Source: a virus
Length of the DNA stretch: 64,000 bases
Strand: one strand, 5' to 3'
Virus record (IMG/VR): IMGVR_UViG_3300036402_000045
Location: 25,783 to 89,782 of that record
The notes below the pieces were generated by a model. The model did not search any database, was not told where the DNA came from, and was given only the letters and a program-made list of their open reading frames with translations. Below, in pieces: positions 10,740 to 32,902 of the stretch. Numbering within the stretch: position 1 is the first letter of the stretch; every line of letters starts with the position of its first letter. The position numbers and the translations under genes are program-made.

Positions 10740-10748
10740 GCGTATCAT
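10740..10748 (+). promoter_or_regulatory. Class-2 promoter motif, rightward
   Basis: GCG followed by TATCAT (10743-10748) stands six bases before an ATG at 10755. It is a slightly weaker copy of the TGCGTATCA motif and faces away from the leftward promoter at 10708. Confidence 0.4.
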
Positions 10749-10754
10749 CCGAAC

Positions 10755-10778
10755 ATGACGAAAGAGGCAGCCATGTAA
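10755..10778 (+). CDS. Possible 7-aa leader peptide MTKEAAM
   Basis: The ATG lies six bases after the class-2 motif, where leaderless starts sit elsewhere, and the frame closes after seven codons just before a GC-rich hairpin. It may be a leader peptide or simply the 5' end of a non-coding RNA. Confidence 0.25.
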   Translation: MTKEAAM

Positions 10779-10781
10779 CCG

Positions 10782-10797
10782 CCGCCCGAAAGGGCGG
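10782..10797 (+). terminator. GC hairpin with GAAA loop
   Basis: CCGCCC and GGGCGG pair around a GAAA tetraloop and are followed by ATTTCCTCTC. It would end or fold the short transcript from 10755. Confidence 0.5.
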
Positions 10798-10815
10798 ATT
10801 TCCTCTCAGTAGTCA

Positions 10816-10860
10816 ACGAAGGGCAGGCGACTTGGGTGCCACTCAATCCCTGCCCTTCGT
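10816..10860. terminator. 12-bp perfect inverted repeat
   Basis: Bases 10816-10827 pair perfectly with 10849-10860 around a 21-nt loop. No T-run follows on the plus strand. It may be a terminator or part of a structured leader for the gene at 10903. Confidence 0.45.
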
Positions 10861-10902
10861 CGCGTCTTGACACCGATCCGGTTAGCGCTCCTTCGGAAAG
10901 GC

Positions 10903-11055
10903 ATGAGACAAGACGACCAATCCATACGGGAGATCAAGCGCCGGTGGGAACGCGAGGCCAAGGAGATGACGGACGATGAACTGGTTCACCGCATCTACTC
11001 CCGAAGGGCCAACCAGTACGACCGGGCCGAGGCCAAGAAGCGGAATCTCGTATGA
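10903..11055 (+). CDS. Hypothetical basic protein, 50 aa
   Basis: MRQDDQSIREIKRRWEREAK starts at 10903 with GGAAAGG just upstream. It is a highly charged helical protein (RRWEREAKEMTDDELVHR). No family was recognised. A translationally coupled 18-codon frame follows. Confidence 0.65.
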   Translation: MRQDDQSIREIKRRWEREAKEMTDDELVHRIYSRRANQYDRAEAKKRNLV

Positions 11056-11108
11056 CCCGCCTTCTCTACCGTTTCGGCCAGGATACCGACTTCAGAAAGT
11101 TCTCCTAA
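11052..11108 (+). CDS. Possible 18-aa micropeptide
   Basis: The ATG overlaps the stop of the 50-aa gene (ATGA) and encodes MTRLLYRFGQDTDFRKFS. Coupling is the only support. Confidence 0.3.
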   Translation: MTRLLYRFGQDTDFRKFS

Positions 11109-11127
11109 CTACCATATAGATAGTTAG
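11105..11127. repeat. AT-rich inverted repeat
   Basis: CTAACTA (11105-11111) pairs with TAGTTAG (11121-11127) around CCATATAGA. It lies between two convergent genes and could be a terminator or a protein site. Confidence 0.45.
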
Positions 11128-11164
11128 TGGATTCGATCGTTCTTCCACTCGGTACTACGTAGCC

Positions 11165-11207
11165 CGCGGTTATCAAGATACGCAATACCTTGATGTGGAA
11201 AACCGCG
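11165..11207 (-). terminator. Hairpin just after the winged-helix gene
   Basis: Bases 11165-11171 pair with 11201-11207 and 11172-11177 pair with 11089-style continuation at 11189-11194, giving 13 bp with one bulge. It starts two bases past the stop of the 11209-11586 gene. The loop contains a reverse copy of GCGTATC, so a promoter is also possible. Confidence 0.5.
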
Positions 11208-11208
11208 T

Positions 11209-11586
11209 TCAAGCTCTCTTCCGTTTGGCCTCGGCTTTGGGACGCTCGTAGACGTGAACCAGAATGGCAACAATCTTTCCGTCTTCACGGACCTGTTCTC
11301 GTCGCACATAGCCACGCTCAACGAGTTCCTTCATGGCCGACCTGACCGAGAACTCTCCATCGGTCTTGGCTTTGGAAAGTTCCTCTACAAAGAAGTGCCA
11401 GTCATCCGGTCGGCTAAGCATGAACGCGAGCAAGCCCGTGGCTTTGAAGCTCAAGAGCGGATCACGCAGAGTGTCGTTCTCTATGCGTGTGTACGTCTCA
11501 TGCTTCTTGATTCGGTGGATGGTCTTCGAATCGAGCGTCATCTGTCTGACGGCAAGGGAACTGACCTTCTGATTCTTGGCTGTCAT
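11209..11586 (-). CDS. Winged-helix replication/regulatory protein, 125 aa
   Basis: MTAKNQKVSSLAVRQ starts at 11586 behind AGGAGC. Residues about 45-105 (LLSFKATGLLAFMLSRPDDW, then VRSAMKELVERGYVRRE) match the N-terminal winged helix found in DnaD/DnaB-like phage replication initiators and related regulators. The C-terminus is very basic. It is the only minus-strand gene in the control region, with a long structured leader upstream. It could be the initiator or a regulator acting on the operators; the sequence does not decide. Confidence 0.8.
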   Translation of the reverse strand: MTAKNQKVSSLAVRQMTLDSKTIHRIKKHETYTRIENDTLRDPLLSFKATGLLAFMLSRPDDWHFFVEELSKAKTDGEFSVRSAMKELVERGYVRREQVREDGKIVAILVHVYERPKAEAKRKRA

Positions 11587-11626
11587 GTTGTATGCTCCTG
11601 CTTGGTATCGGGACAGGTGCCACCGT

Positions 11627-11678
11627 ACACGGCCCCCACTATCCGAGCGCTCGTCGCTAACGGAGAAGGGGGCCGTGT
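11627..11678 (-). promoter_or_regulatory. Strong nested hairpin in leader of winged-helix gene
   Basis: Bases 11627-11637 pair perfectly with 11668-11678 (11 bp, GC-rich). Inside, 11642-11645 pair with 11661-11664 and 11646-11649 with 11655-11658. It lies about 40 bases before the ATG at 11586 and may attenuate that gene or belong to a replication origin. Confidence 0.5.
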
Positions 11679-11755
11679 CGCGTCTACCCTCGGCCACGGA
11701 GCCTGGTCGTTGTGTGTCCCGTAGCGACGGGATCAGCGACCGGCTCCACCTACTT

Positions 11756-11765
11756 TGCGTATCGT
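11756..11765 (+). promoter_or_regulatory. Class-2 promoter motif before RNA B
   Basis: TGCG followed by TATCGT (11760-11765) lies four bases before position 11770, where structured RNA B would begin. It is a one-base variant of the consensus. Confidence 0.45.
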
Positions 11766-11769
11766 TGTG

Positions 11770-11913
11770 ATGCGGGAGGACTAAGAGCACACCGAGGCTC
11801 TGGCGAGCGCTTACAACACCAGGCCGAATCCATCGCTAGGCCAGGATGGAAGGCAAACACTCATCCCGGTAACGGGTTCGCTCAACGTCCAGAGATAGAG
11901 GCGTCCTCCCGCT
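11770..11913 (+). ncRNA. Candidate structured RNA B, unknown class
   Basis: P1 pairs 11772-11781 with 11903-11912 (10 perfect bp). Two bases later P2 pairs 11784-11788 with 11797-11801 around an 8-nt loop, the same geometry as in RNA A. A further stem can pair 11805-11809 with 11879-11883, and inside it CCCG-GTAA-CGGG (11864-11876 region) forms a GNRA-type hairpin. A 4-codon frame starts at 11770 but no real ORF fits. A class-2 motif sits directly upstream. The function is unknown. Confidence 0.5.
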
Positions 11914-11927
11914 CTACACTTTCGGAT

Positions 11928-12098
11928 ATGCGGCGACAGAAGCTCGATCCGGATCTCAAGGCCAAGCTCAAGGCCGCACGTCTGCTTCGGAATGAGCGCC
12001 CGTCGTTAGGACTGAAAACCCGTCTACACGACGAGGTAGAGCGCAGACCCAACAGCCTTGACGATCCCGACACGACCGCAAGGGACGCTCTGGATTAG
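11928..12098 (+). CDS. Hypothetical basic protein, 56 aa
   Basis: MRRQKLDPDLKAKLKAARLL starts at 11928, seven bases after TACACT, with no ribosome site, so it may be leaderless. It is a charged helical protein directly upstream of dnaB. No family was recognised. Confidence 0.6.
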   Translation: MRRQKLDPDLKAKLKAARLLRNERPSLGLKTRLHDEVERRPNSLDDPDTTARDALD

Positions 12099-12103
12099 CC
12101 GCC

Positions 12104-12113
12104 TGCGTATCAG
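12104..12113 (+). promoter_or_regulatory. Class-2 promoter of dnaB
   Basis: TGCG plus TATCAG (12108-12113) stands six bases before the dnaB ATG at 12120. No -35 box is visible. Confidence 0.6.
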
Positions 12114-12119
12114 GCATAT

Positions 12120-13394
12120 ATGACCGATCTCGACGGGGCGCTTGTCGCCTATGCCGTCCGTCGTCCGCTTGGGTTGACCGAGCTTCAGCGCGCTGGCATC
12201 ACAACTGAGTACCTGACCGATGACTATGCGAAGGCATGGGATTGGGTCAACCGCATGAAGCGCCAGCACGGTGCGATCCCTTCGCTTCGGGTCGTGCAGC
12301 AGCGCTATGCGGATCTCGATCTCACACCCGCTCGTCAACGAGACGTGCCGATGCTGGTTTCCGAAGTGAAGCAGCGGAAGAAGCTCATCGATTTCCACGA
12401 CGCAATCGAAAACGCTTCCTCTACCGCTCGATCGGTGGACGACATCGACCGTGCGCTCTCGCAGCTTCAGGCCCAACTCAACAGCCTCAACGTACAGGGG
12501 TTGGGCAACCAGTCGATCGTTGACCTGTTCAGCCGTTCCGCCAAACGACGGATGATGAAGGATCTGAAGCAGCGCCGGTCCGGGAAGATGATCGGCATCC
12601 CCACGGGGCTGAAGCGCTTCGACTTCGTGACGGGAGGACTCGTTTCCCGAAAGATGGTCGTCGTCATGGCGCGTACCGGCGTCGGCAAGTCATGGCTCAA
12701 CCTGCTCTTCGTTGCGAGCGCTGTCCTCAACGGCAACAAGGTCGTGCTCTATCCGTTGGAGATGACGCTGGAGGAAACGGCTCTTCGCCTCTACACGATC
12801 TTCAGCCAGAAGATGTTCCGAGGAAGCGACACTCTGAAGAACCTCGATCTGACGATGGGACGCTTCAGCCCTCGCAAGGTCGTGCGCCTGCTCAACATGC
12901 TGGAGGACAAGTACGAAGGTCAGTTGTTCGTGGCCGACGTTGCGAGCCTCAGCGATCCCTACACGCCCGAGCGGGTGGAGTCTGAAGTTGAGCTTTACAA
13001 GCCCGACATGTTCTGGGTCGATTACCTCACGCTCCTGAAGGCCCCGAACGGTCGCAGCGGTGCGGAGGACTACACATCGATCAAGGTGCTCTCCAACGCC
13101 ATCAAGGGGATCGCACAGCGACAGGGGTGTGTCGGTGGTGCATCGGCTCAGGTGAACCGCGACGCCATGAAGGTGCGAAGCTTCATCCCCCGTGTTGAGC
13201 ACATCAGCTACGGCGATTCCATCGGCCACGATGCGGATCAGATTCTTTCACTGGGGAGGAAGGATGAGCACCTTTACTACGGCCTCGTCAAGAACCGTGG
13301 CGGTCCCGAGATCGGGCGCACGCGCATGAAGGCGTTCTTCGATGAAGGACGTATCGAAGAGGACGAGCAACAGGAGTCCGAGGATGACGATTGA
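12120..13394 (+). CDS. dnaB: DnaB-type replicative helicase, 424 aa
   Basis: The RecA-like C-terminal domain has Walker A ARTGVGKS near residue 183, then VVLYPLEMTLEE (the H1a-type segment), Walker B FWVDYLTLL near residue 300 and HISYGDSIGHDADQ near the end. The N-terminal 120 residues fit a reduced DnaB N-domain. It unwinds DNA at the fork with the primase encoded at 16832. The start lies six bases after the class-2 -10 motif and has no ribosome site. The acidic tail (EEDEQQESEDDD) may contact partners. Confidence 0.92.
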   Translation: MTDLDGALVAYAVRRPLGLTELQRAGITTEYLTDDYAKAWDWVNRMKRQHGAIPSLRVVQQRYADLDLTPARQRDVPMLVSEVKQRKKLIDFHDAIENASSTARSVDDIDRALSQLQAQLNSLNVQGLGNQSIVDLFSRSAKRRMMKDLKQRRSGKMIGIPTGLKRFDFVTGGLVSRKMVVVMARTGVGKSWLNLLFVASAVLNGNKVVLYPLEMTLEETALRLYTIFSQKMFRGSDTLKNLDLTMGRFSPRKVVRLLNMLEDKYEGQLFVADVASLSDPYTPERVESEVELYKPDMFWVDYLTLLKAPNGRSGAEDYTSIKVLSNAIKGIAQRQGCVGGASAQVNRDAMKVRSFIPRVEHISYGDSIGHDADQILSLGRKDEHLYYGLVKNRGGPEIGRTRMKAFFDEGRIEEDEQQESEDDD

Positions 13395-13551
13395 GTTCAT
13401 GCGCTGTCCCTCCTGCAACAACGAGCACCTTAGGGATCATTGCGAAAGCCCGTCGTGCCCGTGGAAGAAGTGTCGCAACTGCAATGCGTACGGTCCCAAG
13501 TCACCGAATCCGAAAGTTCCGTGGCGTTCCGACAAGAAGGATGAACGATGA
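13384..13551 (+). CDS. Zinc-ribbon protein, 55 aa
   Basis: The ATG lies inside the end of dnaB. The protein has CPSC, CESPSC and CRNC cysteine pairs, the pattern of a small zinc-binding module, and a basic C-terminus. Its coupling to dnaB suggests a replication accessory, but this is not shown. Confidence 0.75.
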   Translation: MTIEFMRCPSCNNEHLRDHCESPSCPWKKCRNCNAYGPKSPNPKVPWRSDKKDER

Positions 13552-13802
13552 CCGGTCCCGATGAAGAGGCATTCCGTCAGCTTGCCAAGCAGGACACTCG
13601 GAAGTTCGTCATCACACAGGCGTTCGCGCACGGCTTCGTAACCCAAGTGATTCCGGTGATGACCCCAGACGGCGAGCACGAACAACAAATCCGCATCGAG
13701 GGGCCGTGGATGGAAGTCGGCTACTACGAGGAAGCTCTGTTCATCAAATCCTCAGCGATGCCCGCCTCAACGGTAGCGAAGTTCGAAGTGGTTTCCGAAT
13801 GA
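13548..13802 (+). CDS. Hypothetical protein, 84 aa
   Basis: The ATG at 13548 overlaps the previous stop (ATGA). The protein is soluble and begins MTGPDEEAFRQLAKQD. It ends in TTTCCGAATGA, so a TTCCGAA heptamer falls at its 3' end. No family was recognised. Confidence 0.75.
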   Translation: MTGPDEEAFRQLAKQDTRKFVITQAFAHGFVTQVIPVMTPDGEHEQQIRIEGPWMEVGYYEEALFIKSSAMPASTVAKFEVVSE

Positions 13803-14278
13803 AGCTCTTGGTCTGTGGCTCCCGTGATTGGGACGACGAGAACACCATCTGGTCGATCCTCGACGGCTACTACGAGAACGACACACTGGGCCACCTGACA
13901 GTCACGATGGCGTCGTTCACATTGATCGAAGGCGGGGCCAAGGGAGCGGACGCTTGCGCTCACCGATGGGCAAAGAACAGCCCGCTGCATTCGCACAACG
14001 AGCGACCTGATGATCCGGAGTTCCGTCACGTCACGGTCAATGCGAAGTGGGACGAGCATCATCCCAAGTGGTGTCCTTCGGACTGGTGCGCCGCGCGGGA
14101 CTACTGCGTTGGTGCCGGTCCTCGTCGCAACCAACGAATGATCGATCGACACAAGCCCGATCTCGTTCTCGCATTCAAGAACGGGTTCAACTGGAAGCTC
14201 AACAAGGGCGGCACCGAAGACATGGTTTCCCGCGCCATCGCAGCAGAGATCGATTACTACGTGATCGGAAGGAAGTAA
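13799..14278 (+). CDS. SLOG-family (YspA/cpYpsA-like) nucleotide-binding protein, 159 aa
   Basis: MKLLVCGSRDWDDENTIW is the N-terminal beta-strand/loop of the YspA/cpYpsA SLOG branch, and LIEGGAKGADACAHRWA near residue 45 is the ligand-binding GGxxGxD motif. SLOG domains bind nucleotide-derived ligands and some act in phage-host conflict. The ATG overlaps the previous stop. The ligand is unknown. Confidence 0.88.
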   Translation: MKLLVCGSRDWDDENTIWSILDGYYENDTLGHLTVTMASFTLIEGGAKGADACAHRWAKNSPLHSHNERPDDPEFRHVTVNAKWDEHHPKWCPSDWCAARDYCVGAGPRRNQRMIDRHKPDLVLAFKNGFNWKLNKGGTEDMVSRAIAAEIDYYVIGRK

Positions 14279-15351: not shown

Positions 15352-15356
15352 ACGGA

Positions 15357-16835: not shown

Positions 16836-17881
16836 ACGCAGCAGACCTTGGGATCGATGACGTTCTCGATGTAGTTCGGAATGTCTTTGGCATCGAAGGG
16901 GAAGTCCGCAAGACCAACCGTGGTCCGCAGATGCAATTCCTCTGCGTCGTGCATCAGGACTCTGATCCTTCTGCGGACGTTCACCTGGAGACGGGCTACT
17001 GGAACTGTTGGTCGTGCTCTGCCGGTGGCGACATCATCGATCTCGGAGCACGCGCGACAGGCAAGAAGCGGAAGGACATCAGGAAGCTCCTGGTTCCCGA
17101 CAATCCCGATGCCAAGCGTGCTGCCGTTGCCCGCCGTGCAAAGGCCGTACGCGGCCTCCTGAGGGCCACTGAGAAGCCTTTGGCTATCAAGTCGATCATC
17201 GACATTCCGCAGGACTACCCGACCGGTGGGAACTTCCGGTATCTCCGAGATCGTGGGTTCACCAAGGGCACGCTGGACTACTGGGGAATCCGCTACGTGA
17301 GGGAACAGGAGTTGCCGAGAGAGAACGGCAAGCCTTTCACGATCACCAACGCTTTCGGAATTCCGATCCGAGACGAGCACGGCGAAGTCATCGGCTGGTG
17401 CTACCGAGCTTCCCCGCAATCCGAGGCATGGTTCCAGAAGATCCGCTACATCTACACACCGGGCCTCCAGAACGTCCTGAACCAGACGTGGTACGGGCTG
17501 TGGGAGAACTGGGACTCGAAGGAGATCACCGTCACCGAAGGTGCCTTCGATGCGATCTGGAACTGGCAATGCGGCTACCCCGCCGTCGCCGTTCTCGGGA
17601 ACCAGGCGAAGCAGATCGTCAAAATCCGAAAGTTGATGCACTTCCGCCACGTCACCCTGTTCCTGGACCGTGACCGAACGGGTGCCGAGATCACCGAGTA
17701 CCTCGGGTCGGAACTCACAAAGCGTGGTGTTCCCGTTGACGTAGCGAGGTTTTCGTCGTTCATGGTTGGCCGTGACGGGAAGCCCGCAAAGGACTCTCAA
17801 GACCTGTGCCCGCTGGACGTTGATCTGTGTCACGTCCGCGCACTACCGTATGGCATCTGGAAAGGACGAGCCGTAGCTTGA
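16832..17881 (+). CDS. dnaG: DnaG-type DNA primase, 349 aa
   Basis: The N-terminus has a CHC2-like zinc finger (CVVH near residue 31, CWSC near residue 55). The TOPRIM core follows with TVTEGAFDAI near residue 232 (catalytic Glu) and LFLDRDRTG near residue 279 (DxD). It is shorter than bacterial DnaG because the helicase-binding C-domain is missing. It makes primers for the DnaE polymerase. The GTG start overlaps the previous stop. Confidence 0.92.
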   Translation: MNAADLGIDDVLDVVRNVFGIEGEVRKTNRGPQMQFLCVVHQDSDPSADVHLETGYWNCWSCSAGGDIIDLGARATGKKRKDIRKLLVPDNPDAKRAAVARRAKAVRGLLRATEKPLAIKSIIDIPQDYPTGGNFRYLRDRGFTKGTLDYWGIRYVREQELPRENGKPFTITNAFGIPIRDEHGEVIGWCYRASPQSEAWFQKIRYIYTPGLQNVLNQTWYGLWENWDSKEITVTEGAFDAIWNWQCGYPAVAVLGNQAKQIVKIRKLMHFRHVTLFLDRDRTGAEITEYLGSELTKRGVPVDVARFSSFMVGRDGKPAKDSQDLCPLDVDLCHVRALPYGIWKGRAVA

Positions 17882-17906
17882 CGAGCTAACGGAAACTTTC
17901 TAGTAT
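17878..17906 (+). promoter_or_regulatory. Class-1 type promoter of the sigma gene
   Basis: TTGACG (17878-17883), a 17-base spacer and TAGTAT (17901-17906) form a good vegetative-type promoter overlapping the primase stop. The spacer has CGGAAAC but not the full operator. Confidence 0.7.
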
Positions 17907-17924
17907 TGGGAGCAAGAGAGGAAA

Positions 17925-18344
17925 GTGACCTTGGCACAGACGGCGGTAGCTACGGATTGGGCGGAACGCTTCGAGGCGGCACAACCCGCGTACATGGGGA
18001 AGATCAGACGGTTCGCACGCCAGAAGGCGTCGATGCGGTATATCCCCGGTTACGACGAGTGCGACTTCGAGAACGACTTGCTCGAAGTGCTCTGGATGGC
18101 GTGTCGAACGTACGACCCGAACAAGGGTGCGAGCTTCAACACGCTGTTCTGGCAGATGAGCTTCAACCACGTCATCAGCCTCCACCGAAAGGCGTCTTCC
18201 CAGAAGCGGGTCGGGGACTACGAGCGCATCAGCCTCGATGTCGAAGAGATCCGGGAAGCCATTTCCGAACTTCGGGCCGATCCCTCTGCGGAGGATGAAT
18301 ACCTGGCCCGTCTTGCGGTTACGGAACGCTGGCGGTCTTCCTAA
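17925..18344 (+). CDS. Sigma-70-like factor with region 2 only, 139 aa
   Basis: Residues about 20-95 match sigma region 2: FENDLLEVLWMACRTYDPNK followed by GASFNTLFWQMSFNHVISL and a basic segment, which binds core polymerase and the -10 element. A conserved acidic linker follows, and the protein ends where region 4 would start. No region-4 helix-turn-helix was found in any frame nearby. GTG at 17925 follows GAGAGGAAA; TTG at 17931 is an alternative. It has its own vegetative-type promoter and could read the -35-less class-2 promoters. Confidence 0.75.
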   Translation: MTLAQTAVATDWAERFEAAQPAYMGKIRRFARQKASMRYIPGYDECDFENDLLEVLWMACRTYDPNKGASFNTLFWQMSFNHVISLHRKASSQKRVGDYERISLDVEEIREAISELRADPSAEDEYLARLAVTERWRSS

Positions 18345-18351: not shown

Positions 18352-18361
18352 TGCGTATCAG
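18352..18361 (+). promoter_or_regulatory. Class-2 promoter
   Basis: TTGCG plus TATCAG (18356-18361), then five bases and the GTG at 18367. Confidence 0.55.
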
Positions 18362-18366: not shown

Positions 18367-18573
18367 GTGGACGAAGACCGGAAGATCGCAAGGCTGGAAG
18401 AGAAGCGGGCATCCCGCTTCCTGGATGCCCTCGCAAGAGATCCCTTCGTTTGCATCATCGTCACCAACGACGGCCAAGTGCAGATCGTCAGTTCGCAGAT
18501 TTCGGAAGAACACCTTCTGCGTATCAAGAAGGTCTTGAAGGAGATCGAAGACGACAATGCCCTCCAAGACTGA
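18367..18573 (+). CDS. Hypothetical protein, 68 aa, leaderless
   Basis: GTG at 18367 lies five bases after TATCAG and has no ribosome site. The protein (VDEDRKIARLEEKRASRFLD...) has a charged helix, a short beta core (CIIVTNDGQVQIVSSQ) and a charged C-terminal helix. Lying right after the sigma gene, it could be a co-factor, but this is speculation. Confidence 0.65.
   Translation: MDEDRKIARLEEKRASRFLDALARDPFVCIIVTNDGQVQIVSSQISEEHLLRIKKVLKEIEDDNALQD
18518..18527 (+). promoter_or_regulatory. Class-2 motif inside the 68-aa gene
   Basis: TGCG plus TATCAA (18522-18527) lies 30 bases before the homing endonuclease ATG, within the end of the upstream gene. It may be a promoter or only coding sequence. 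Confidence 0.35.
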
Positions 18574-19009
18574 CCAAGCCTGGTTCGCCGGATTGGTTGA
18601 CGGCGAAGGATGCTTCACGTTCTCCTGGCAGCGGACGCTCCATCTGGCATTCATCCTTGGCATGACGCATGAGCGCACCATCCAGCGTGCAAGCGTCATT
18701 CTGGAACACGCGGGCGTTCCGCAGACAATGAAGATTCGTGCAAAGTCCGCAGCGGACAAGCCGGAATGGAAAACGTTCTACGAGATTCGGGTCCAGAACT
18801 TCGACGGCGTGCTTAGGGTGTGCGAGTTCATTCGGCCTTTCTCTGTCACGAAGTTCCAGTACGCCGAAGAGTTTGCGGACGTGATCCGACAGATCCAGAG
18901 GACGCCTGTGGGCAACCGTTCGGAAAGTCTTCGCGGACCTGTTCACGAAACTGCGTATCAGAGATTGATGAAGAGTTTCAGGCCGCAAATCGAAAGCGAA
19001 GGAGAGTAG
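18557..19009 (+). CDS. LAGLIDADG homing endonuclease (single motif), 150 aa
   Basis: WFAGLVDGEGCFTFSW near residues 9-24 is the LAGLIDADG helix and following strand. Only one motif is present, so it should act as a homodimer on a near-palindromic site. It is free-standing, with no intron or intein found around it. It overlaps the 68-aa gene by 17 bases. It may be a mobile gene that spreads between related phages. Confidence 0.88.
   Translation: MPSKTDQAWFAGLVDGEGCFTFSWQRTLHLAFILGMTHERTIQRASVILEHAGVPQTMKIRAKSAADKPEWKTFYEIRVQNFDGVLRVCEFIRPFSVTKFQYAEEFADVIRQIQRTPVGNRSESLRGPVHETAYQRLMKSFRPQIESEGE
18952..18961 (+). promoter_or_regulatory. Class-2 motif before the ssDNA-binding gene
   Basis: TGCG plus TATCAG (18956-18961) lies within the 3' end of the homing endonuclease gene, six bases before an in-frame ATG and about 50 before the next gene. 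Confidence 0.4.
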
Positions 19010-19789
19010 ATGCCCGCAGCTACCGGAAAGGGGTTGACGCCGAAGACGTTCGGCGGGTTGTCAAAGACCCGTAGCGCGTCGGGCGCTTCCGCCTTTCCCC
19101 GTGTCAAGCTGAAGGACGACGAAACCGTTTCCCTCCAGTTCTTCGGAAGCATCGAAGACGAGGACTCGTTCAAGGAGTTCGATCAGCACCAGTGGCGAGA
19201 GAAGTATTGGAACTACGTCGCCTGCCTCGGTGACGATTGCCCGCTCTGCGACGACGAGGACGACGACGTTTCGAAGCAGCACTACCGCTTCGTTGCGCTC
19301 GTCTACAACCACGACGAGAAGCAGGTTCAGGTACTCGAAGGTCCGGGCACGATGGCGCAGCGGATCATTCTGAAGGCAGAGCGTCGTCCGGAGTCGTTCG
19401 TCAAGCGGACTTGGGACGTAACCCGTCTCGACACGACGCCAACGTCGTACGACATCGACCAGAGCGACCAGAAGCCGATCAACCTGCGCCAGAAGAACCG
19501 GCTCGATCTCCAGGCTTACATCGATGAGTCTGCGGCCCGGTACTTCGGAAAGAACGCTCCCCGTCCCGACAAGAGCGGGAAGAAGGCCGGTCGGAAGTCA
19601 GCCCTCGATGATGACGACGAGGATTACGACGACGACGAAGAGACGTACACCAAGGCCGATCTCATGGACATGAGCGCCCGCGAACTGAAGACGACGGCCA
19701 AGCAGTTCAAGGTCCGTCTCGTTGACAGCAGCGGTGACAAGAAGAGCAAGCAGCAAGTCATCCGAGAAATCCTCAAGAAGCAGAAGTAA
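19010..19789 (+). CDS. Probable ssDNA-binding protein, 259 aa
   Basis: The core (about residues 25-165) has an OB-like beta-rich region with a CPLC zinc-type pair near residue 77, as in phage gp32-like proteins. Next come a basic hinge, an acidic stretch (DDDDEDYDDDEET) and a C-terminal SAP-like module (DLMDMSARELKTTAKQFKVR). An acidic tail on a ssDNA-binding protein usually recruits partners. The family call rests on layout and position in the replication block. GGAGAG precedes the ATG. Confidence 0.65.
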   Translation: MPAATGKGLTPKTFGGLSKTRSASGASAFPRVKLKDDETVSLQFFGSIEDEDSFKEFDQHQWREKYWNYVACLGDDCPLCDDEDDDVSKQHYRFVALVYNHDEKQVQVLEGPGTMAQRIILKAERRPESFVKRTWDVTRLDTTPTSYDIDQSDQKPINLRQKNRLDLQAYIDESAARYFGKNAPRPDKSGKKAGRKSALDDDDEDYDDDEETYTKADLMDMSARELKTTAKQFKVRLVDSSGDKKSKQQVIREILKKQK

Positions 19790-20900: not shown

Positions 20901-20910
20901 TGCGTATCAC
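20901..20910 (+). promoter_or_regulatory. Class-2 promoter of thyX
   Basis: TGCG plus TATCAC (20905-20910), then TAGGC and the thyX ATG at 20916. It lies right after the terminator, so it must drive the next unit. Confidence 0.65.
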
Positions 20911-20915: not shown

Positions 20916-21701
20916 ATGACCGAAGAGATCACCTTCCGGAGTGATTTCGCCATATCTGTTGTTGACGAGATGGCGAATGACGAGTCGGTGTTGCGGGCCA
21001 TGCTCGTTGCCACCGACAAGGTTCCTACTGGCTCTGCCGAAACCACGGCCAACACGGGACGGATCAACGCCCTGATGCGAGATCGGCACGGCACTCCGTT
21101 CGAGCACAACAGCATCATCTTCTACGCGGAGGCCCCGATCTTCGTCTTCCGTGAGTGGCACCGCCACCGCATCGGAATCTCGATCAACGAGCAGAGCGGG
21201 CGGTATTCCGAACTTCCGCCCATGTTCTACGTCCCGCCTCGCCATCGTCCTCTCGTCAAGGTCGAAGGCACGAAGCAAATGGCCTACGAAAACGAGCTTG
21301 CGAGCGATGAGCAGTACGCCAGAAAGATCGCCGGAGACAAGCGGGTGATGGCAGCGGCCTATCGGGAGTACGAACGGCAGCTTGAGGACGGGATCGTGAA
21401 AGAGTCCGCTCGCAACTGCCTTCCGGTCAGCATCTACTCAAAGATGTTCTGGACTTGCAACGCCCGTTCGCTCATGGCGTTCCTGTCGCTCCGTGTTCGC
21501 AAGGGTCCGTTCTGGAACCAGACCGAGACGCTTGACGGTGTTCCTACGGACTACTGGACGCAAGACCCCGAAGGTTCGGTTTTCCCGAGCAAGCCTGCTT
21601 GGGAGATCGATGCGTGTGCTCAAGCGATGGAGCAGTTGTTCGCAACGCTCATGCCGGTCACGCACGAAGCGTTCCTGAAGCACGGTCGCGTTGCTCCATG
21701 A
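20916..21701 (+). CDS. thyX: FAD-dependent thymidylate synthase ThyX, 261 aa
   Basis: RHGTPFEHNSIIFYAEAPIF and then RHRIGISINEQSGRY carry the ThyX motif, and CNARSLMAFLSLR near residue 190 is the dUMP-binding part. The spacing from RHR to the motif serine is one residue longer than in the T. maritima enzyme as I recall it. It makes dTMP from dUMP with methylene-THF and FADH2. The start is leaderless, five bases after TATCAC. Confidence 0.95.
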   Translation: MTEEITFRSDFAISVVDEMANDESVLRAMLVATDKVPTGSAETTANTGRINALMRDRHGTPFEHNSIIFYAEAPIFVFREWHRHRIGISINEQSGRYSELPPMFYVPPRHRPLVKVEGTKQMAYENELASDEQYARKIAGDKRVMAAAYREYERQLEDGIVKESARNCLPVSIYSKMFWTCNARSLMAFLSLRVRKGPFWNQTETLDGVPTDYWTQDPEGSVFPSKPAWEIDACAQAMEQLFATLMPVTHEAFLKHGRVAP

Positions 21702-26552: not shown

Positions 26553-26556
26553 GAAG

Positions 26557-26566
26557 GACGTATCAC
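26557..26566 (+). promoter_or_regulatory. Class-2 promoter
   Basis: GACG plus TATCAC (26561-26566), then TAGAT and an ATG at 26572; the 10 bases after CGTATCACTAG repeat the thyX promoter closely. Confidence 0.6.
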
Positions 26567-26571
26567 TAGAT

Positions 26572-26850
26572 ATGTCAGGAATCACGATCAAGAGCATCAA
26601 GGACTTCAAGATCTATCCAGCGGTCAAGGTGCTCCCTCGCGTTTGCGAGAGGCCCGAGCACATGACAACGCACGACACGCTAGGTCTTCGGTGCTTCAAC
26701 GCCGAAGGTCCGGAGTTCAAGAGCGGGGGCGAAATACGCAAGCACATGTGCGTGTTCCGCCACGATCACTACGGCACCCTGCACTACGCCGTTGTGTTCG
26801 ACAACGACGGTATCCCCACTTGGTACGAATGGGGATGGGCGAGTGCCTGA
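26572..26850 (+). CDS. Hypothetical protein, 92 aa, leaderless
   Basis: MSGITIKSIKDFKIYPAVKV starts five bases after TATCAC with no ribosome site. The protein has several H and C residues (CERPEHMTTHDTLGLRC) that might bind a metal. It leads the RecA group. Confidence 0.7.
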   Translation: MSGITIKSIKDFKIYPAVKVLPRVCERPEHMTTHDTLGLRCFNAEGPEFKSGGEIRKHMCVFRHDHYGTLHYAVVFDNDGIPTWYEWGWASA

Positions 26851-27142
26851 CTACGGCAACCACAACAAGGGCTTCAAGCGCATGGCGCTGCCCGAGGCCA
26901 AGAAGGAGTGCAACACCAAGCTCGACTCCTACGTCCGAGCCGAATGCAACCGGTGTGAGATGGCGGTCATGCTCCACTGTTCGGATTGCAATATTCAGAT
27001 CACCGGATGCTTCTGTTCGGACGAGGACCGCTTCGGAAAGAACGAGGCGATCCAGAAGATGATCGACCGCATGGGCTTCGAGAAGGCCAAGGAAAAGCTC
27101 ACCCGTCAAGGGATCTGGGTTCCTCCGGGAGTGAAGGGCTAA
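26843..27142 (+). CDS. Zinc-binding hypothetical protein, 99 aa
   Basis: The GTG at 26843 overlaps the preceding stop. A cluster CNRC ... HCSDCN ... CFC near residues 35-60 suggests a zinc finger. It is coupled to recA (stop/start overlap at 27142) and may act in recombination. Confidence 0.7.
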   Translation: MPDYGNHNKGFKRMALPEAKKECNTKLDSYVRAECNRCEMAVMLHCSDCNIQITGCFCSDEDRFGKNEAIQKMIDRMGFEKAKEKLTRQGIWVPPGVKG

Positions 27143-28221
27143 TGCCTCGCAAGACCACAGAGAAGGTCGAACTGACTCCCGCTGGACTCGCTGCGGCGAT
27201 GAACAAGAAGTGGGGTCCAGGAACAATGATGATGGGGAACGACCCTTCCCTCGTCATCGAACGTCTACCGACCGGAATCTTGTCGGTGGACTACGCCATG
27301 AAGGGCGGCTTCGCAAGAGGCCGTCACGTCGAACTATTCGGATCTGCAAACGTCGGGAAGACGGCTCTTGCCTATCGCCTAATGGCGATGACCCAACGTG
27401 GCGGTGAGCGGGTCGGCTACGTCGATGTGGAGAAGACGTTCGATCCCGACTTCGCTGGGCATCTCGGCGTTGACGTGAAGACGATGGCGTACCACAAGCA
27501 GATCAACGCGAACCGTGTCGTTGACTTCCTGGACGTTCTGCTTCGATCCGAGATGTACGGCGTCCTCTGCGTGGACTCCATCGCCGCGCTGACGCCCAAG
27601 ATCGAGATCGATTCCGATATGGAGACGACCGGATCAATGGGCATGGAGCAAGCCAAGCTCATGTCCAAGGCCCTTCGGAAACTCACGACCGCCAACGACA
27701 GGACGCTCATCATCTGGATCAACCAGACCCGTGATTCCGTGGGTGGCATGTTCGCCAAGAAGAACGTCACATCTGGTGGGCGCGCGATGGGCTTCTATGC
27801 TTCGACCCGCATCGAGATGGTCCGAACGGAGACGATCAAGAAGAAGGGCAAGATCGTAAATCCGAAGAACGGCACCATCACCGAGTCGGACGTGGCAACG
27901 GGTCATCGAGTCCTTTTGCGTATCGAGAAGGACAAGACGGGTTCCGCCAACCCGTTCGACCAGACGAGCTTCGTGTTCTCCTACGAGGACGCGAACATCG
28001 ATCACCTGGAAGACCTGATGTACGTCGGACGACAGGCGGGTGTCGTCCACAAGAGCGGTACGGAGCGTTCGGAGAAGTGGTGGGTCGAAGGCTACGAGGA
28101 CGACAAGCAATCGGGACGCACGCGGTTCAAGCGGTGGCTCAAGAACAACCCCGCCGTCGCTGACGAACTGGAAGAGATGATCTGGGAAGATTCCGAACCC
28201 GAGGACGAAGAAGACGAGTAG
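27142..28221 (+). CDS. recA: RecA recombinase, 359 aa
   Basis: Walker A is GSANVGKT near residue 67, Walker B is GVLCVDSIAAL near residue 145, and TLIIWINQTRDSVGGMF is the L1/L2-region strand. The length matches bacterial RecA (352 aa). It pairs homologous DNA, presumably with the Cas4-like nuclease and RuvC-like resolvase further on. The acidic C-terminus (EDSEPEDEEDE) is usual for regulation. Confidence 0.95.
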   Translation: MPRKTTEKVELTPAGLAAAMNKKWGPGTMMMGNDPSLVIERLPTGILSVDYAMKGGFARGRHVELFGSANVGKTALAYRLMAMTQRGGERVGYVDVEKTFDPDFAGHLGVDVKTMAYHKQINANRVVDFLDVLLRSEMYGVLCVDSIAALTPKIEIDSDMETTGSMGMEQAKLMSKALRKLTTANDRTLIIWINQTRDSVGGMFAKKNVTSGGRAMGFYASTRIEMVRTETIKKKGKIVNPKNGTITESDVATGHRVLLRIEKDKTGSANPFDQTSFVFSYEDANIDHLEDLMYVGRQAGVVHKSGTERSEKWWVEGYEDDKQSGRTRFKRWLKNNPAVADELEEMIWEDSEPEDEEDE

Positions 28222-28535: not shown

Positions 28536-28545
28536 AGACCGGGAG

Positions 28546-28755
28546 ATGGAGCGGGAGGGGACCGTCACCATCAACTTCGTGACGTATGGCCGGAAGGATC
28601 AGGCCGAGAAGACAGCACAGCAGATGGTCAAGGATCTCCAGGTTCGTCAGCACAGCATCGTCCACGCCGCTTTCGACGGCAGCGAGCTTCAGATCAATCG
28701 CAAGTGGTCAACCCCGGTGCTCGATCACGACCATGACGAGCCGGTCGTTGACTGA
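28546..28755 (+). CDS. Hypothetical protein, 69 aa
   Basis: MEREGTVTINFVTYGRKDQA starts at 28546 after GGGAG. It is a small alpha/beta protein with an acid/histidine-rich end (HDHDEPVVD). No family was recognised. Confidence 0.65.
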   Translation: MEREGTVTINFVTYGRKDQAEKTAQQMVKDLQVRQHSIVHAAFDGSELQINRKWSTPVLDHDHDEPVVD

Positions 28756-28943
28756 TGGCGGGCAAGAAGAACGAACTGTGGATTCTCATCGCTTTGGTGT
28801 CTGCGCTGTTCCTCGTCGTTGTGATGTGGCTGTCACTGACGATGATTGCTGACAACGCCAACGATCAAGAGCGAAACATCAAACGGTGCCTGCGGATCGA
28901 GAATTCCGAAGCCGCTCTTCGATGTGTGGCTAGCGAAATCTGA
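28755..28943 (+). CDS. Small membrane protein, 62 aa
   Basis: Residues 8-33 (WILIALVSALFLVVVMWLSL) form one transmembrane span, followed by a hydrophilic tail with two cysteines. The start overlaps the previous stop. The function is unknown. Confidence 0.7.
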   Translation: MAGKKNELWILIALVSALFLVVVMWLSLTMIADNANDQERNIKRCLRIENSEAALRCVASEI

Positions 28944-29365
28944 TGATCGACAAGGAAGCTCGGATCATTCTGAAGCGCTGGACTCGCTGCCAGTATTACG
29001 TCTACCTCCGTCCGCTGGACTACCGCTTCTACAACCCGACCGCTGACTTCGCCGTTCACTGGAAAGTGACGGTGGAGTACCGAGGGCTGGGTTACAAGCA
29101 ACACGTCGGAGAGGGCATGAACCTTTCCGAAGTAATCAAGAAACTGGGCCTAGAGGTTCCGCTGAACAAGCCGAAGCTGTCGCCCCGAGCTTCAGTCCCG
29201 CGCCCAACCACCGTGGCGAAGATCAACGTCAATATCCGAAAGAACCCCGGTCGGGTGAAGCTGACCCAGAAGTTCGTTGACGACGCCAGAGGCGATGCGG
29301 AGGCGATGCCCGCCAACGGGGGCGTCCGGAAGCGGAAGAAGAAGCCTCATGCCCGTCGCAAGTGA
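28943..29365 (+). CDS. Hypothetical protein, basic C-terminus, 140 aa
   Basis: The ATG overlaps the previous stop. The N-terminal half is aromatic (QYYVYLRPLDYRFYNP) and the last 20 residues are strongly basic (RKRKKKPHARRK), so it may bind nucleic acid. It overlaps the nuclease start by 17 bases. Confidence 0.7.
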   Translation: MIDKEARIILKRWTRCQYYVYLRPLDYRFYNPTADFAVHWKVTVEYRGLGYKQHVGEGMNLSEVIKKLGLEVPLNKPKLSPRASVPRPTTVAKINVNIRKNPGRVKLTQKFVDDARGDAEAMPANGGVRKRKKKPHARRK

Positions 29366-30245
29366 CCGCAGCATTCTGAAGTCGTTCGTCAAGCACATTC
29401 AGGAGAAGGACGTTGATCCGTTCACTCCATTGATCGATGCGTACCTCACGAAGCGAGAGCTTCCCAAGTACCGAGACAGACGGCTGAAGGAGTTCAGCTT
29501 CCCGGTGCTGGAGCGCCCTCGTCCGTTGGGCAGGTTGTCTCCCTCTGCCCTCTGTGGCTGCGAGAGACAGGCCGCGTTCAAGATGCTGGGGGTTGAGGGC
29601 CGCAAGCGGGTTGACGCCGACACAGAGTTGGTCTTCATGGACGGTCATTGGCGTCACCACAAGTGGGACTACATCTTCCTCGACATGCAGGCGATGTTTC
29701 CGAACAAGATCAAGGTGCTCTCCTACGAGGACAACATCAAGATCCCGCACCTGTTCATCGCTGGCTCGTTGGACATTCATGTTGCTGTCAAGATGGATGG
29801 TCGCTGGGTTCGCTACGTCATCGACTTCAAAGGAGCGAACGACTGGGCATTCCAGTACGTCCACAAGAACCACGCTCCGAAGCCCGAACATCTCCTTCAG
29901 GTGCTCCCCTACATGCGAGCCAAGAAGTGCCGCAAGGGAGCGGTGATCTACGACTCCAAGAATCGAAACAACTTCTACATCTTCACCTTCGACTTCAACG
30001 CGAAGGAATGGAAGATGGTTCGCCGCTGGGCCGGTCGGGTGCTCGATCAGCTAGAGCGGAATGTTCTGCCGCCCACGTCTCCCGATTGCACCAAGGGCAA
30101 CTTCATGGGAGACAAGTGCCCGTTCCGAGGACTCTGCTATGGCCCGAAAGACGACGACCGGATCGAGCAAGAGATCTTCCAGCAATGGCAAGGACTCGAA
30201 GCTCTCTGGGAAGAAGGACTTGCGATCGAAGCCGAAATCTTCTAA
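29349..30245 (+). CDS. Cas4/RecB-like exonuclease with Fe-S cysteines, 298 aa
   Basis: Central GSLDIHVAVKMDGRWVRYVI then DFKGAND gives the D...DxK core of PD-(D/E)XK nucleases. A cysteine pair at CGCERQ near residue 63 and a C-terminal CTKGNFMGDKCPFRGLC set resemble the four cysteines that hold an iron-sulphur cluster in Cas4/AddB-type enzymes. It probably resects DNA ends for RecA. Its 3' end carries the start of the 159-aa gene in another frame. Confidence 0.85.
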   Translation: MPVASDRSILKSFVKHIQEKDVDPFTPLIDAYLTKRELPKYRDRRLKEFSFPVLERPRPLGRLSPSALCGCERQAAFKMLGVEGRKRVDADTELVFMDGHWRHHKWDYIFLDMQAMFPNKIKVLSYEDNIKIPHLFIAGSLDIHVAVKMDGRWVRYVIDFKGANDWAFQYVHKNHAPKPEHLLQVLPYMRAKKCRKGAVIYDSKNRNNFYIFTFDFNAKEWKMVRRWAGRVLDQLERNVLPPTSPDCTKGNFMGDKCPFRGLCYGPKDDDRIEQEIFQQWQGLEALWEEGLAIEAEIF

Positions 30246-30618
30246 TGATGCCTATAGCGAGGTACGGGCGGTCCTCGAACCGTTGCTTGAATTCTTCGCG
30301 GCGGGGGATGATGTGTTCACCGAACACGATTCATTTGATCCGGCACACCTACACGCCTCTCTTGGAAGGATCTATCGAAGTTGGAAGGTTTGCCGTACCG
30401 CTTTGGACCCGGAATTCGACCCGGAGAGATTCAGCTACGAGCGGAAGCAGAAGCGGCGTGCTTCGGATTCACCCAGTCCGATCAGCCGAACCCGTTCTAC
30501 GGTCCCGAAGTCGATCTCCGCAACGAACCGCAAGCGGACCGCGACGCCAGAGAAGAAGTCGCCAAAGCCATCTGTTCGTCGTGCAAGCTCAAGTGGCCGT
30601 GCCTCGAATGGGCGATAG
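30139..30618 (+). CDS. Hypothetical protein nested between nuclease and WhiB, 159 aa
   Basis: The ATG at 30139 follows GAGGA by seven bases. The middle (about residues 37-90, EVRAVLEPLLEFFAAGDDVF and on) looks like real helical protein, while both ends are S/K/R-rich and lie over the neighbours (107 bases over the nuclease, 238 over WhiB). The gene is plausible because about 135 bases would otherwise be non-coding, but the limits are uncertain. Confidence 0.5.
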   Translation: MARKTTTGSSKRSSSNGKDSKLSGKKDLRSKPKSSNDAYSEVRAVLEPLLEFFAAGDDVFTEHDSFDPAHLHASLGRIYRSWKVCRTALDPEFDPERFSYERKQKRRASDSPSPISRTRSTVPKSISATNRKRTATPEKKSPKPSVRRASSSGRASNGR

Positions 30619-31031
30619 CCACCGAGGAAGAGTGGGGCGTGTGGGGCGAGATGCCCCCGCAGGATCGCAAGAGGTTTCGGAAATGGCTGCGGAAGACCAA
30701 GCGCAATGAGAAGCCCAAAGGCTCCAGCCTCAAGAACCTCGTCACGCTCTGGCTCCAAGTCGAAGAGCGCAACCGCAAGCGTCGGGAGCGAGAAGCCAAG
30801 AAGCAAGCCCAACCTCAAGCAAAGGTCGTCAAGCTCACACCGCGCCCTGGTGGTGATGGGACTCGATCTGTCTCTGACCGCAACCGGGTTGGTGGTACTG
30901 GACGGGCTACGGGTTTGTCGGTGGCGGCTTCTCCGAACGGAACCAGTAGGACAGCAAGGCCAGTCCCTCGGGCTGCTTCCGTCAGGCAAGTACCGGGGGC
31001 ACCAAGAGGATCGAATCGAGTGGTCCGTTAG
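30381..31031 (+). CDS. whiB: WhiB-family regulator
   Basis: Residues about 26-85 hold the four WhiB cysteines: ACFG, then AICSSCKLKWPCLEW, followed by the turn GVWGEMPPQDR (usually G[V/I]WGG). WhiB proteins bind a 4Fe-4S cluster and contact the host main sigma factor. The TTG start at 30381 has GGAAGGA upstream. The long C-terminal 110 residues are basic and low-complexity and overlap the RuvC-like gene in a different frame, so the true end may lie within the overlap. Confidence 0.85.
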   Translation: MEGLPYRFGPGIRPGEIQLRAEAEAACFGFTQSDQPNPFYGPEVDLRNEPQADRDAREEVAKAICSSCKLKWPCLEWAIATEEEWGVWGEMPPQDRKRFRKWLRKTKRNEKPKGSSLKNLVTLWLQVEERNRKRREREAKKQAQPQAKVVKLTPRPGGDGTRSVSDRNRVGGTGRATGLSVAASPNGTSRTARPVPRAASVRQVPGAPRGSNRVVR

Positions 31032-31374
31032 CCATATCCGAAAGGCGTGGCGTAAGTTCCGCCCCGATCTTGTCGTGATCGAGGACTACGCCTACGGCGC
31101 TCGCGGCAGGGGCTTGACCGGCATCCATGAGCACGGAGGCGTGGTCCGGAACTTCCTGTACCGAGTCGATGCCCCGTTTGTGGTGGTGCAGAACGCCGTC
31201 ATCAAGCAGTACGCAACGGGATCAGGCAAAGCCACGAAGCCTGAGATGGTTGCCGAGGCGAAGACTCACTGGCCCGAGCTTCCAGACATGCGAGAGAACG
31301 ACAACCTCGCAGACGCCTACTTCATGGCACATTTCGGAAACACGAACTACTCATCCCTGGTGCAGAATGCTTGA
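30856..31374 (+). CDS. RuvC-like Holliday-junction resolvase, 172 aa
   Basis: MGLDLSLTATGLVVLD is the first RNase H-fold strand with the catalytic Asp, PDLVVIEDYAYGARGRG near residue 73 gives the Glu, and MRENDNLADAYFMAHFG at the end gives the final Asp pair. It resolves branched DNA before packaging. It starts inside the whiB frame with no clear ribosome site (GTG codons just upstream are alternatives). Confidence 0.88.
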   Translation: MGLDLSLTATGLVVLDGLRVCRWRLLRTEPVGQQGQSLGLLPSGKYRGHQEDRIEWSVSHIRKAWRKFRPDLVVIEDYAYGARGRGLTGIHEHGGVVRNFLYRVDAPFVVVQNAVIKQYATGSGKATKPEMVAEAKTHWPELPDMRENDNLADAYFMAHFGNTNYSSLVQNA

Positions 31375-31399
31375 CAGCAGAATGTTTCCGTTCTAGCCT
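31371..31399 (+). promoter_or_regulatory. Class-1 promoter, rightward, leaderless
   Basis: TTGACA (31371-31376), a 17-base spacer with AGAATGTTTCCG, and TAGCCT (31394-31399); the ATG follows after seven bases. It overlaps the end of the resolvase gene and is the only full class-1 copy with operator on the plus strand. Confidence 0.7.
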
Positions 31400-31406
31400 G
31401 GAGCAC

Positions 31407-31625
31407 ATGAACACGAAGCAGTTGAAGGAGCGGTTGGAGAAGATCAACGTCCTTGACGAGAAGCCCGACCCCGAAGCCGCTCACTCCGAGCAGGACGATC
31501 TGATCGTGGCGTTTCTTGCTGAGATCGTTGACAACAAATACCGCAACTACAACCGTCTTCGGCAACACGCTGAGCTTCTTCTGAAGTTGGCGACCGATGA
31601 CCAGAGAGAGCGGTGGTACGCGTGA
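31407..31625 (+). CDS. Hypothetical protein, 72 aa, leaderless
   Basis: MNTKQLKERLEKINVLDEKP starts at 31407. It is a charged helical protein (two long helices, EQDDLIVAFLAEIVDNKYRN) and may dimerise. No family was recognised. Confidence 0.7.
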   Translation: MNTKQLKERLEKINVLDEKPDPEAAHSEQDDLIVAFLAEIVDNKYRNYNRLRQHAELLLKLATDDQRERWYA

Positions 31626-32002
31626 TCGCCGCTTCCGGCGTTCGCTTCGACGGTCTTGACCTGTTGGTGGTCTTGGCCCTCGTCTCCATCATCGTCGTGC
31701 TGGTGTCGCTCTACTTCGTAACCTTCGGCAAGAAGGTCGATGACGACATCGATCGTCTACTGAAGACCACCGGCCCGAAGCTCTCAATGGACGAGATGGA
31801 TGGGCTTCTCCGGACCGATTACCTGGCTCTGTTGACGCCGAACCTGAGCGCCACCCCCTACTTCCTTGACAGTGGAACCTCACTCCCGAAGCTGTGGAGC
31901 TTGATGGACGAGGAATGGAAGTACGGGATTTCCGAAAGTCCCATGCCCACTCCGTTCTACGACTGGGCCAATGAGCGGCCCGTTCCGCTGGTGAACTGGT
32001 GA
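31622..32002 (+). CDS. Membrane-anchored hypothetical protein, 126 aa
   Basis: The GTG start overlaps the previous stop. Residues 12-37 (LLVVLALVSIIVVLVSLYFV) form one membrane span; the rest is soluble and aromatic. The function is unknown. Confidence 0.7.
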   Translation: MIAASGVRFDGLDLLVVLALVSIIVVLVSLYFVTFGKKVDDDIDRLLKTTGPKLSMDEMDGLLRTDYLALLTPNLSATPYFLDSGTSLPKLWSLMDEEWKYGISESPMPTPFYDWANERPVPLVNW

Positions 32003-32220
32003 GCGCGGACCTGCCGGGAGTGCTTCCTCCCGTCCGCATCCCGAAGGACTGGAAGGAGCGGGCCGACCTCGCCAACTTCGCTGGCCTCTCGGACGACGAA
32101 AGGGCTGCTCTGGACGCATGGTGCGCCCTGGAACAGCGGGAGTACGAGGCCCGTCTACGGCGAGCGATGGAACGTGACGGCGACCTGCCGATGGCGTCCG
32201 CATCCGACGAGAAGGCATGA
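31999..32220 (+). CDS. Hypothetical protein, 73 aa
   Basis: The GTG overlaps the previous stop (GTGA). The product is helical and acidic (LSDDERAALDAWCALEQREY). No family was recognised. Confidence 0.65.
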   Translation: MSADLPGVLPPVRIPKDWKERADLANFAGLSDDERAALDAWCALEQREYEARLRRAMERDGDLPMASASDEKA

Positions 32221-32732
32221 GCTACCGAGGCAGCGCGTCGCTCTCGGACAACGGTTGGTATCGCTACGACCTGGAACGGAAGTGGGAGCGAGTCATAACC
32301 CGCAAGGTCGTCTGGGTCATGCTCAACCCGAGCACCGCCGATGCTCGATTCGATGACGCCACAATCCGAAAGTGCGTGAGCTTCTCCCAGATATGGGGCT
32401 TCGACGGCATGGCTGTGGTGAACCTGTTCGCCTACCGGTCCACCAATCCCAACGTTCTCGCCAACCTGCACGACAAGGGCCATGCACGCGGACCCGAGAA
32501 CCCTGGATACATCAGAAGCCACATCAACGACCGCGAGACACAACTAGTGGTGGCTGCTTGGGGAGCCAACGTCAACAAGATGGGCCTGCCCCGTTACAAC
32601 ATCGAAGCATGGTGTCGTGCGGCCAAGAAGCCCCTTCGGTGTCTCGGAACCAACAAGGACGGTTCTCCCAAGCACCCTGGTCGTATCGGTTACGGAACGC
32701 CCCTAGTACCTTTCGGAAAGTACGAGACATGA
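32217..32732 (+). CDS. DUF1643-family protein, 171 aa
   Basis: VVWVMLNPSTADARFDDATI followed by RKCVSFSQIWGFDGMAVVNL is the DUF1643 signature, and LVVAAWGANV and RCLGTNKDGSPKHP complete it. The domain fills the protein. Its role is unknown, though it is common on phages and mobile elements. The start overlaps the previous stop (ATGA). Confidence 0.92.
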   Translation: MSYRGSASLSDNGWYRYDLERKWERVITRKVVWVMLNPSTADARFDDATIRKCVSFSQIWGFDGMAVVNLFAYRSTNPNVLANLHDKGHARGPENPGYIRSHINDRETQLVVAAWGANVNKMGLPRYNIEAWCRAAKKPLRCLGTNKDGSPKHPGRIGYGTPLVPFGKYET

Positions 32733-32902
32733 ACGCTCGAAGCGTTGAGTGCCCGGTCTGTAAAGCCAAGCCCGGACAGCGGTGTTCAGAGGCCAGATCC
32801 TTGAGTCTTCCATGGGGACGATCTCATCCGTCCCGAGTCCAGAAGGCTGCGAAATGCGTATCAACAGAAGATGACCAAGAGACGATCGCGCAAGAAGACT
32901 GA
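32729..32902 (+). CDS. Small zinc-finger protein, 57 aa
   Basis: CPVCKAKPGQRCSEARSLSL followed by GRSHPSRV matches the short CxxC...C...H...R motif found at the end of some phage DNA-modifying proteins and as stand-alone genes. It overlaps the next gene, which starts within it. Confidence 0.7.
   Translation: MNARSVECPVCKAKPGQRCSEARSLSLPWGRSHPSRVQKAAKCVSTEDDQETIAQED
32855..32864 (+). promoter_or_regulatory. Class-2 promoter
   Basis: TGCG plus TATCAA (32859-32864), six bases before the ATG at 32871, within the small zinc-finger gene. Confidence 0.5.

Follow-up and report, generated by a model that had tools for sequence, protein, structure and literature searches.

What drives the transcription of genes whose start codons follow one short word at a nearly constant distance, with no -35 box that they share? 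The question is raised by a stretch of viral DNA of 64,000 nucleotides (the window, positions 25783-89782 of the 89,782-base (89.8-kb) record IMGVR_UViG_3300036402_000045, here called G000) in which the word RCGTATCA recurs ahead of genes. From motif statistics, comparison with related phages and structure prediction, we consider it likely that a phage sigma factor lacking region 4 directs the host RNA polymerase to single-element RCGTATCA promoters. Positions refer to the window unless the contig is named (contig = window + 25782). Gene calls came from a simple codon-usage script that missed some small genes, which makes gene counts approximate, and the G000 contig is possibly incomplete. Two relatives, G001 and G002, were found via DnaE (54% and 45% identical to that of G000, respectively), and G003 is the fourth member of the set of phages bearing the sigma gene.

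An earlier note had placed the motif at gene starts, and this placement is real: all the starts it quoted (10755, 12120, 18367, 20916, 26572 and 32871) lie 6-7 nucleotides past the last A of TATCA, which is 5-6 nucleotides past TATCAN. It was also right in locating copies upstream of 18557 and 19010, but these two would not be leaderless, the distances listed below pointing to leadered mRNAs. The copies in the window, with two of the genes behind them, are:

10740-10747 (+): GCGTATCA, 7 nucleotides ahead of the ATG at 10755
12105-12112 (+): GCGTATCA, putative promoter element of dnaB, 7 nucleotides ahead of the ATG at 12120
12120-13394 (+): DnaB-like helicase gene (PF03796, 1.2e-20), predicted to be leaderless under the motif
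18353-18360 (+): GCGTATCA, 6 nucleotides ahead of the GTG at 18367; position kept in G001 and G002
18367-18573 (+): gene of a small conserved protein of 68 amino acids, whose homologues adjoin the sigma gene in G001, G002 and G003
18519-18526 (+): GCGTATCA, within the open reading frame 18367-18573 and 38 nucleotides ahead of the ATG (18557) of an HNH gene, leadered
18953-18960 (+): GCGTATCA, within the HNH gene and 57 nucleotides ahead of the ATG at 19010 of an SSB-like gene
20902-20909 (+): GCGTATCA, 6 nucleotides ahead of the ATG of thyX (20916-21701), with a strong hairpin immediately before
26558-26565 (+): ACGTATCA, 6 nucleotides ahead of the ATG at 26572, heading the unit that contains recA (27142-28221)
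32856-32863 (+): GCGTATCA, 7 nucleotides ahead of the ATG at 32871 (gene of 174 codons)
10009-10016 (-): ACGTATCA, intergenic, 110 nucleotides upstream of an amidoligase-like gene (8968-9906)
4210-4217 (-): GCGTATCA, intergenic, 184 nucleotides upstream of a helicase gene (2270-4033)

Directly behind the GCGTATCA at 10740 stands a 7-codon open reading frame, MTKEAAM (10755-10778), which may be a leader peptide or merely the transcript start for a later gene.

The excess of the word over chance is large. The window has 8 copies of GCGTATCA where 0.78 would be expected by chance, and 0 of 100 shuffles gave as many; the enrichment claimed earlier stands, and the chance figure of about two per 64 kb given with it was generous. 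Over the whole contig there are 21 copies of CGTATCA, of which 13 have an ATG or GTG exactly 6 or 7 nucleotides past the final A (binomial p = 6e-15), up to five more precede possibly leadered genes, and 16 lie in non-coding DNA (p = 4.5e-8). None of its 21 single-base neighbours shows comparable enrichment in G000, and when all 7-mers found ahead of genes are ranked blind, CGTATCA comes first. The same start-linked arrangement was found in 9 cases in 2.57 Mb of other phage loci, at most one per locus, which gives 0.31 expected for G000.

The earlier note had tentatively assigned the motif to the control of the replication block. Replication genes are indeed among those behind it, in a plus-strand block of the window that encodes DnaB, dCTP deaminase, primase, the SSB-like protein, ThyX, DnaE, RecA and a Cas4-like exonuclease, but the class extends beyond that block to many small genes outside the window. 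The minus strand of the contig carries eight more start-associated copies, seven in the left 11 kb and one at 21374 (-); these eight precede small genes, and those that were scanned match no PHROG family. RCGTATCA is absent from 33-64 kb of the window, home of the head, portal and tail genes; the minus-strand virion block there (about 37-57 kb) contains the genes for the major head, portal, major tail and Dit proteins.

Several features indicate that the word acts in transcription. Its copies are oriented with transcription and located at gene junctions. Strong hairpins stand directly ahead of two G000 copies (contig 5494 and 46684), with folding energies beyond those of all 1000 random segments, and the sigma gene of G001 is followed by an intrinsic terminator before the next motif. 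Shine-Dalgarno-like words precede 2 of the 14 genes that start at a motif but 61 of the 125 others, which agrees with leaderless mRNAs; the SSB-like gene at 19010, by comparison, has the Shine-Dalgarno sequence GGAGAG. Most motif sites have a pyrimidine just ahead of the start codon, as would be the case if transcripts began on that codon, though this is suggestive only. Position 8 of the element is T in 2 of the 14 G000 sites. As the earlier note had observed, no -35 hexamer is shared: counted from the motif, the stretch from -50 to -5 has no conserved position and an information content close to zero. G000 also carries separate TTGAC-17/18-TANNNT promoters, some of them leaderless too, and the presence of these canonical promoters in the same genome marks the motif class as a distinct, second one. 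From orientation, gene junctions, upstream hairpins and terminator, leadered genes with Shine-Dalgarno sequences and the separate canonical promoters, the best reading of about 18 RCGTATCA copies is that they are promoters at the starts of non-structural genes, and the second class without a -35 box proposed by the earlier note is upheld.

Another short word goes with the canonical promoters. GAATGTTT/AAACATTC is found 15 times in the contig, 11 of them in non-coding DNA, often adjoining the -35 of sigmaA-type promoters or lying just within it, and in either orientation (window sites 4050, 6942, 8464, 9958, 10696 and 31380 on the plus strand and 5086 on the minus strand). It resembles an operator for promoters of the first class.

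What, then, would read the motif? The earlier note had missed its likely reader, a sigma factor reduced to region 2, which is encoded just upstream of the small gene at 18367:

17878-17906 (+): sigmaA-type promoter TTGACG-17-TAGTAT before the sigma gene
17931-18344 (+): gene of a predicted sigma factor with region 2 only, 137 amino acids, probable TTG start after AGAGGAAA

In its residues (...DLLEVLWMACRTYDPNKGASFNTLFWQMSFNHVISLHRK...) the protein follows the pattern of sigma region 2, and its best PHROG family is phrog_1740 (E 7e-4), a sigma family that includes gp36 of phage phiEco32. Homologues were found in G001 (phmmer 1e-30), G002 (2.5e-15) and G003 (profile 4e-33), and the one from G002 clears the Pfam cut-off for Sigma70_r2 (PF04542, 35.8 bits vs a cut-off of 24, E 6.8e-9). 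In VIA-align comparisons, the predicted structure gave best Z scores of 8.3 (6pmi_F, root-mean-square deviation (rmsd) 2.8, 83 residues) and 8.0 (6kop_F, rmsd 2.6, 81 residues); almost all VIA and Foldseek matches of the model were sigma factors, at scores that are modest, a Z near 8 being so for a helical protein and the Foldseek E values exceeding 0.1. No match to region 4 was obtained in any of the four homologues, each of which ends within about 70 residues of region 2. Since sigma factors recognize -10 elements through region 2 and -35 elements through region 4, a factor reduced to region 2 is a fitting counterpart to promoters whose only element is of the -10 type. No full-length sigma was seen in the possibly incomplete G000 contig.

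Wider searches of the viral contigs gave little beyond this set: the sigma protein alone had no match, an alignment of three members recovered known relatives only, and an alignment of four members added one match in a more remote phage (L190), whose sigma has region 4 and which carries no CGTATCA in the 20 kb read. In a fecal phage match, MT835476, the sigma was likewise full-length. In MT121964, whose head protein is 35% identical, there is no homologue of the region-2 sigma and no obvious start-linked word.

Comparison with the relatives suggests a link between the protein and the element. G000, G001 and G002 share three placements of the motif, namely ahead of dnaB, ahead of the small gene downstream of the sigma gene and at the start of the recA unit, and the DNA flanking these shared sites is unalike in G001 and G002. 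The form in G001 is TGTCGTATCAA, often with GTG starts, and that in G002 is CGTATCAT; one motif copy of G002, at 64856 behind a terminator, precedes dnaE with a leader. That sigma and motif would occur together was written down as a prediction before G003 was looked at. This phage has the sigma homologue and not the exact word (a single CGTATCA); in a scan of neighbouring words only CGTACCA was enriched, with two starts at 7-nucleotide spacing and 6 of 8 copies non-coding. We favour, post hoc, a shift of specificity from CGTATCA to CGTACCA in G003.

The system could operate as follows. The phage would supply a tiny sigma that keeps region 2, for binding the core clamp and recognizing the -10 element, and that has lost region 4. 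With the host core RNA polymerase it would form a holoenzyme recognizing one -10-type element, RCGTATCA, with no need of a -35. Transcription would start 6-7 nucleotides past the element, in most cases at the initial A or G of the start codon, to give leaderless mRNAs, while a few copies would serve leadered genes. Because the sigma gene has a host-type promoter, host sigmaA would act first, then the phage sigma, then the genes for replication, recombination and small non-structural proteins; the regulon would comprise replication, recombination and small accessory genes and exclude those of the virion. The sigma may also boost its own synthesis, since the dnaB promoter lies upstream of its gene on the same strand. 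We infer the link between sigma and motif from comparison, and likewise the exact start site and the timing.

Several observations weigh against this scenario. Searched alone, the 137-residue protein reaches only E 0.015 in Pfam (PF07638), under the cut-off, and its identity as a sigma would follow from its homologues and predicted fold. G001 and G002 each have a full-length sigma besides, regions 2 and 4 included (G001, 35279-35803 (+), L016; G002, 77456-78301 (-), L023), and the motif there could in principle belong to another factor, though G000, where the copies are most numerous, showed no such sigma. In G003, dnaB has neither CGTATCA nor CGTACCA before it, the small gene after the sigma gene has no motif, and the enrichment of CGTACCA is nominally significant only (p 0.035 and 0.005, for one of 22 words tried). 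Finally, the four phages are related and could have inherited sigma and motif together without a link between them.

The element could instead be read by a host sigma, either an alternative one (for example of ECF type) or sigmaA taking TATCAN as an odd -10, while the phage region-2 protein does something else. CGTA-type -10 elements do occur for some ECF sigmas, and TATCAT, the element of G002, fits TANNNT. We nevertheless hold this to be unlikely: the occasional T at position 8 of the G000 sites is unlike a sigmaA -10, the same word serves phages of 59% and 51% GC whose hosts are probably different, canonical TTGAC...TANNNT promoters exist separately in G000, and the motif tracks the clade that bears the region-2 sigma gene. 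We give still less credence to the motif as the binding site of a phage regulator (a repressor, an activator or something stoperator-like) overlapping the start sites. A short asymmetric word, oriented with transcription and tolerating no one-base variants at starts, would suit such a protein; the fixed spacing of 6-7 nucleotides to the start codons would not, motif genes share no second upstream element, and where copies come directly after terminators something must restart transcription.

The constant short spacing and the scarcity of Shine-Dalgarno-like words could also suggest a translation-initiation signal in the mRNA. The start-associated sequences of cluster K mycobacteriophages are repeats close to gene starts that are thought to act in translation. 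The repeats here are likewise near starts, but leadered copies and terminators point to transcription: because some copies stand a good way ahead of the next start and serve genes with a normal Shine-Dalgarno sequence (18953 in the window, 64856 after a terminator in G002 and contig 22167), a role in translation is very improbable. Least probable of all is that a phage-encoded RNA polymerase reads the motif. Such enzymes typically use a long and nearly invariant word; against this, G000, G001 and G002 gave no match to PF00940, in a search whose positive control also gave none, and no other polymerase was seen among the genes scanned, which were not all of the genes. The region-2 sigma stays our preferred reader of RCGTATCA.

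To our knowledge, only two well-studied phage systems have sigmas free of region 4, phiEco32 gp36 and T4 gp55, and by analogy the system described here appears to work like them. The phiEco32 gp36 shows no homology to region 4, and transcription from its single-element promoters starts 6-8 bp past the element (PMC8948821). The likeness thus concerns both the lack of region 4 and the promoters, which consist of one element (tAATGTAtA there) with no -35; as to spacing, the start codon here is 6-7 nucleotides past the element at 13 sites, and the transcript start is a prediction only. The systems differ in the length of the sigma (214 amino acids for gp36 vs 137), in the element (RCGTATCA here) and in the promoters of G000 being mostly leaderless and serving no virion genes. 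The scores for common descent with gp36, itself a member of phrog_1740, are weak (hhalign E 0.07 and BLASTP 0.61, besides the PHROG value given above), and this descent is not established. In T4, gp55 places only region 2 on the core and works at -10-only promoters without a -35 (PMC2988020, PMC7892883), with gp33 as a stand-in for region 4 (PMC2988020). The gp55 chain 7d7c_F aligns with the model of the 137-residue protein at Z 5.6 over 92 residues (rmsd 4.2). T4 gp55 serves late genes and needs the sliding clamp and gp33, whereas the class described here serves non-structural genes; no gp33 homologue was found, and a phage clamp was not specifically searched for. A further parallel is SigO-RsoA of Bacillus subtilis, where regions 2 (RsoA) and 4 (SigO) are on separate proteins (PMC8103513). 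Region 2 is likewise on a protein of its own here, while a region-4 partner is not established and the promoters are without a -35.

The phage would provide a third such sigma, shorter, diverged enough to need profile methods and predicted to act at about 18 promoters in one phage. It would allow a direct test of the minimal sigma for promoter opening and of how region 2 specificity evolves, having perhaps changed in a relative. If the reading is true, these promoters are a natural set of -10-only promoters giving leaderless mRNAs.

The neighbour of the sigma gene deserves mention. The 68-residue protein (18367-18573) and its homologues share the pattern [RK]A..FL..L....F..C and stand beside the sigma gene in four phages; the G000 protein has no PHROG match, no clear fold match and no known family. 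We dropped it as a region 4, its sequence and its predicted alpha-beta-beta-alpha fold being unlike that region. A bolder and rather doubtful idea is that the 137-residue protein is among the smallest natural sigmas and the 68-residue protein its missing partner, a stand-in for sigma region 4 or gp33 on the beta flap; they would form a split sigma in adjacent genes, the second half under the control of the first, and element and region 2 would have co-evolved (CGTATCA to CGTACCA in G003). The conserved FW of region 2.3-2.4 reads FQ in G003. Elsewhere, a helix-turn-helix protein of 79 amino acids (contig 19010-19249), with homologues in G001 and G002, gave weak scores for sigma region 4 and also matches a common phage helix-turn-helix family, phrog_686.

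Some minor observations concern the host and the relatives. The major head protein, searched against genome_contigs for a host, gave no match. G003 contains, at 52859, 53889, 55183 and 56376 (+), four similar blocks of the form ACGTGCG or CGTGCG...GAGGCATAGT, three of them 6 nucleotides before an ATG; these are promoter-like and may represent another promoter class in that phage. The word TTCGGAA occurs, on both strands together, 185 times in G000, 134 in G001, 32 in G002 and 4 in G003, in coding and non-coding DNA alike. Finally, DnaB and two other proteins of G002 (L021-L023: 23413-27297, 46243-50139 and 57618-61013) carry long insertions relative to G000, which are probably inteins.

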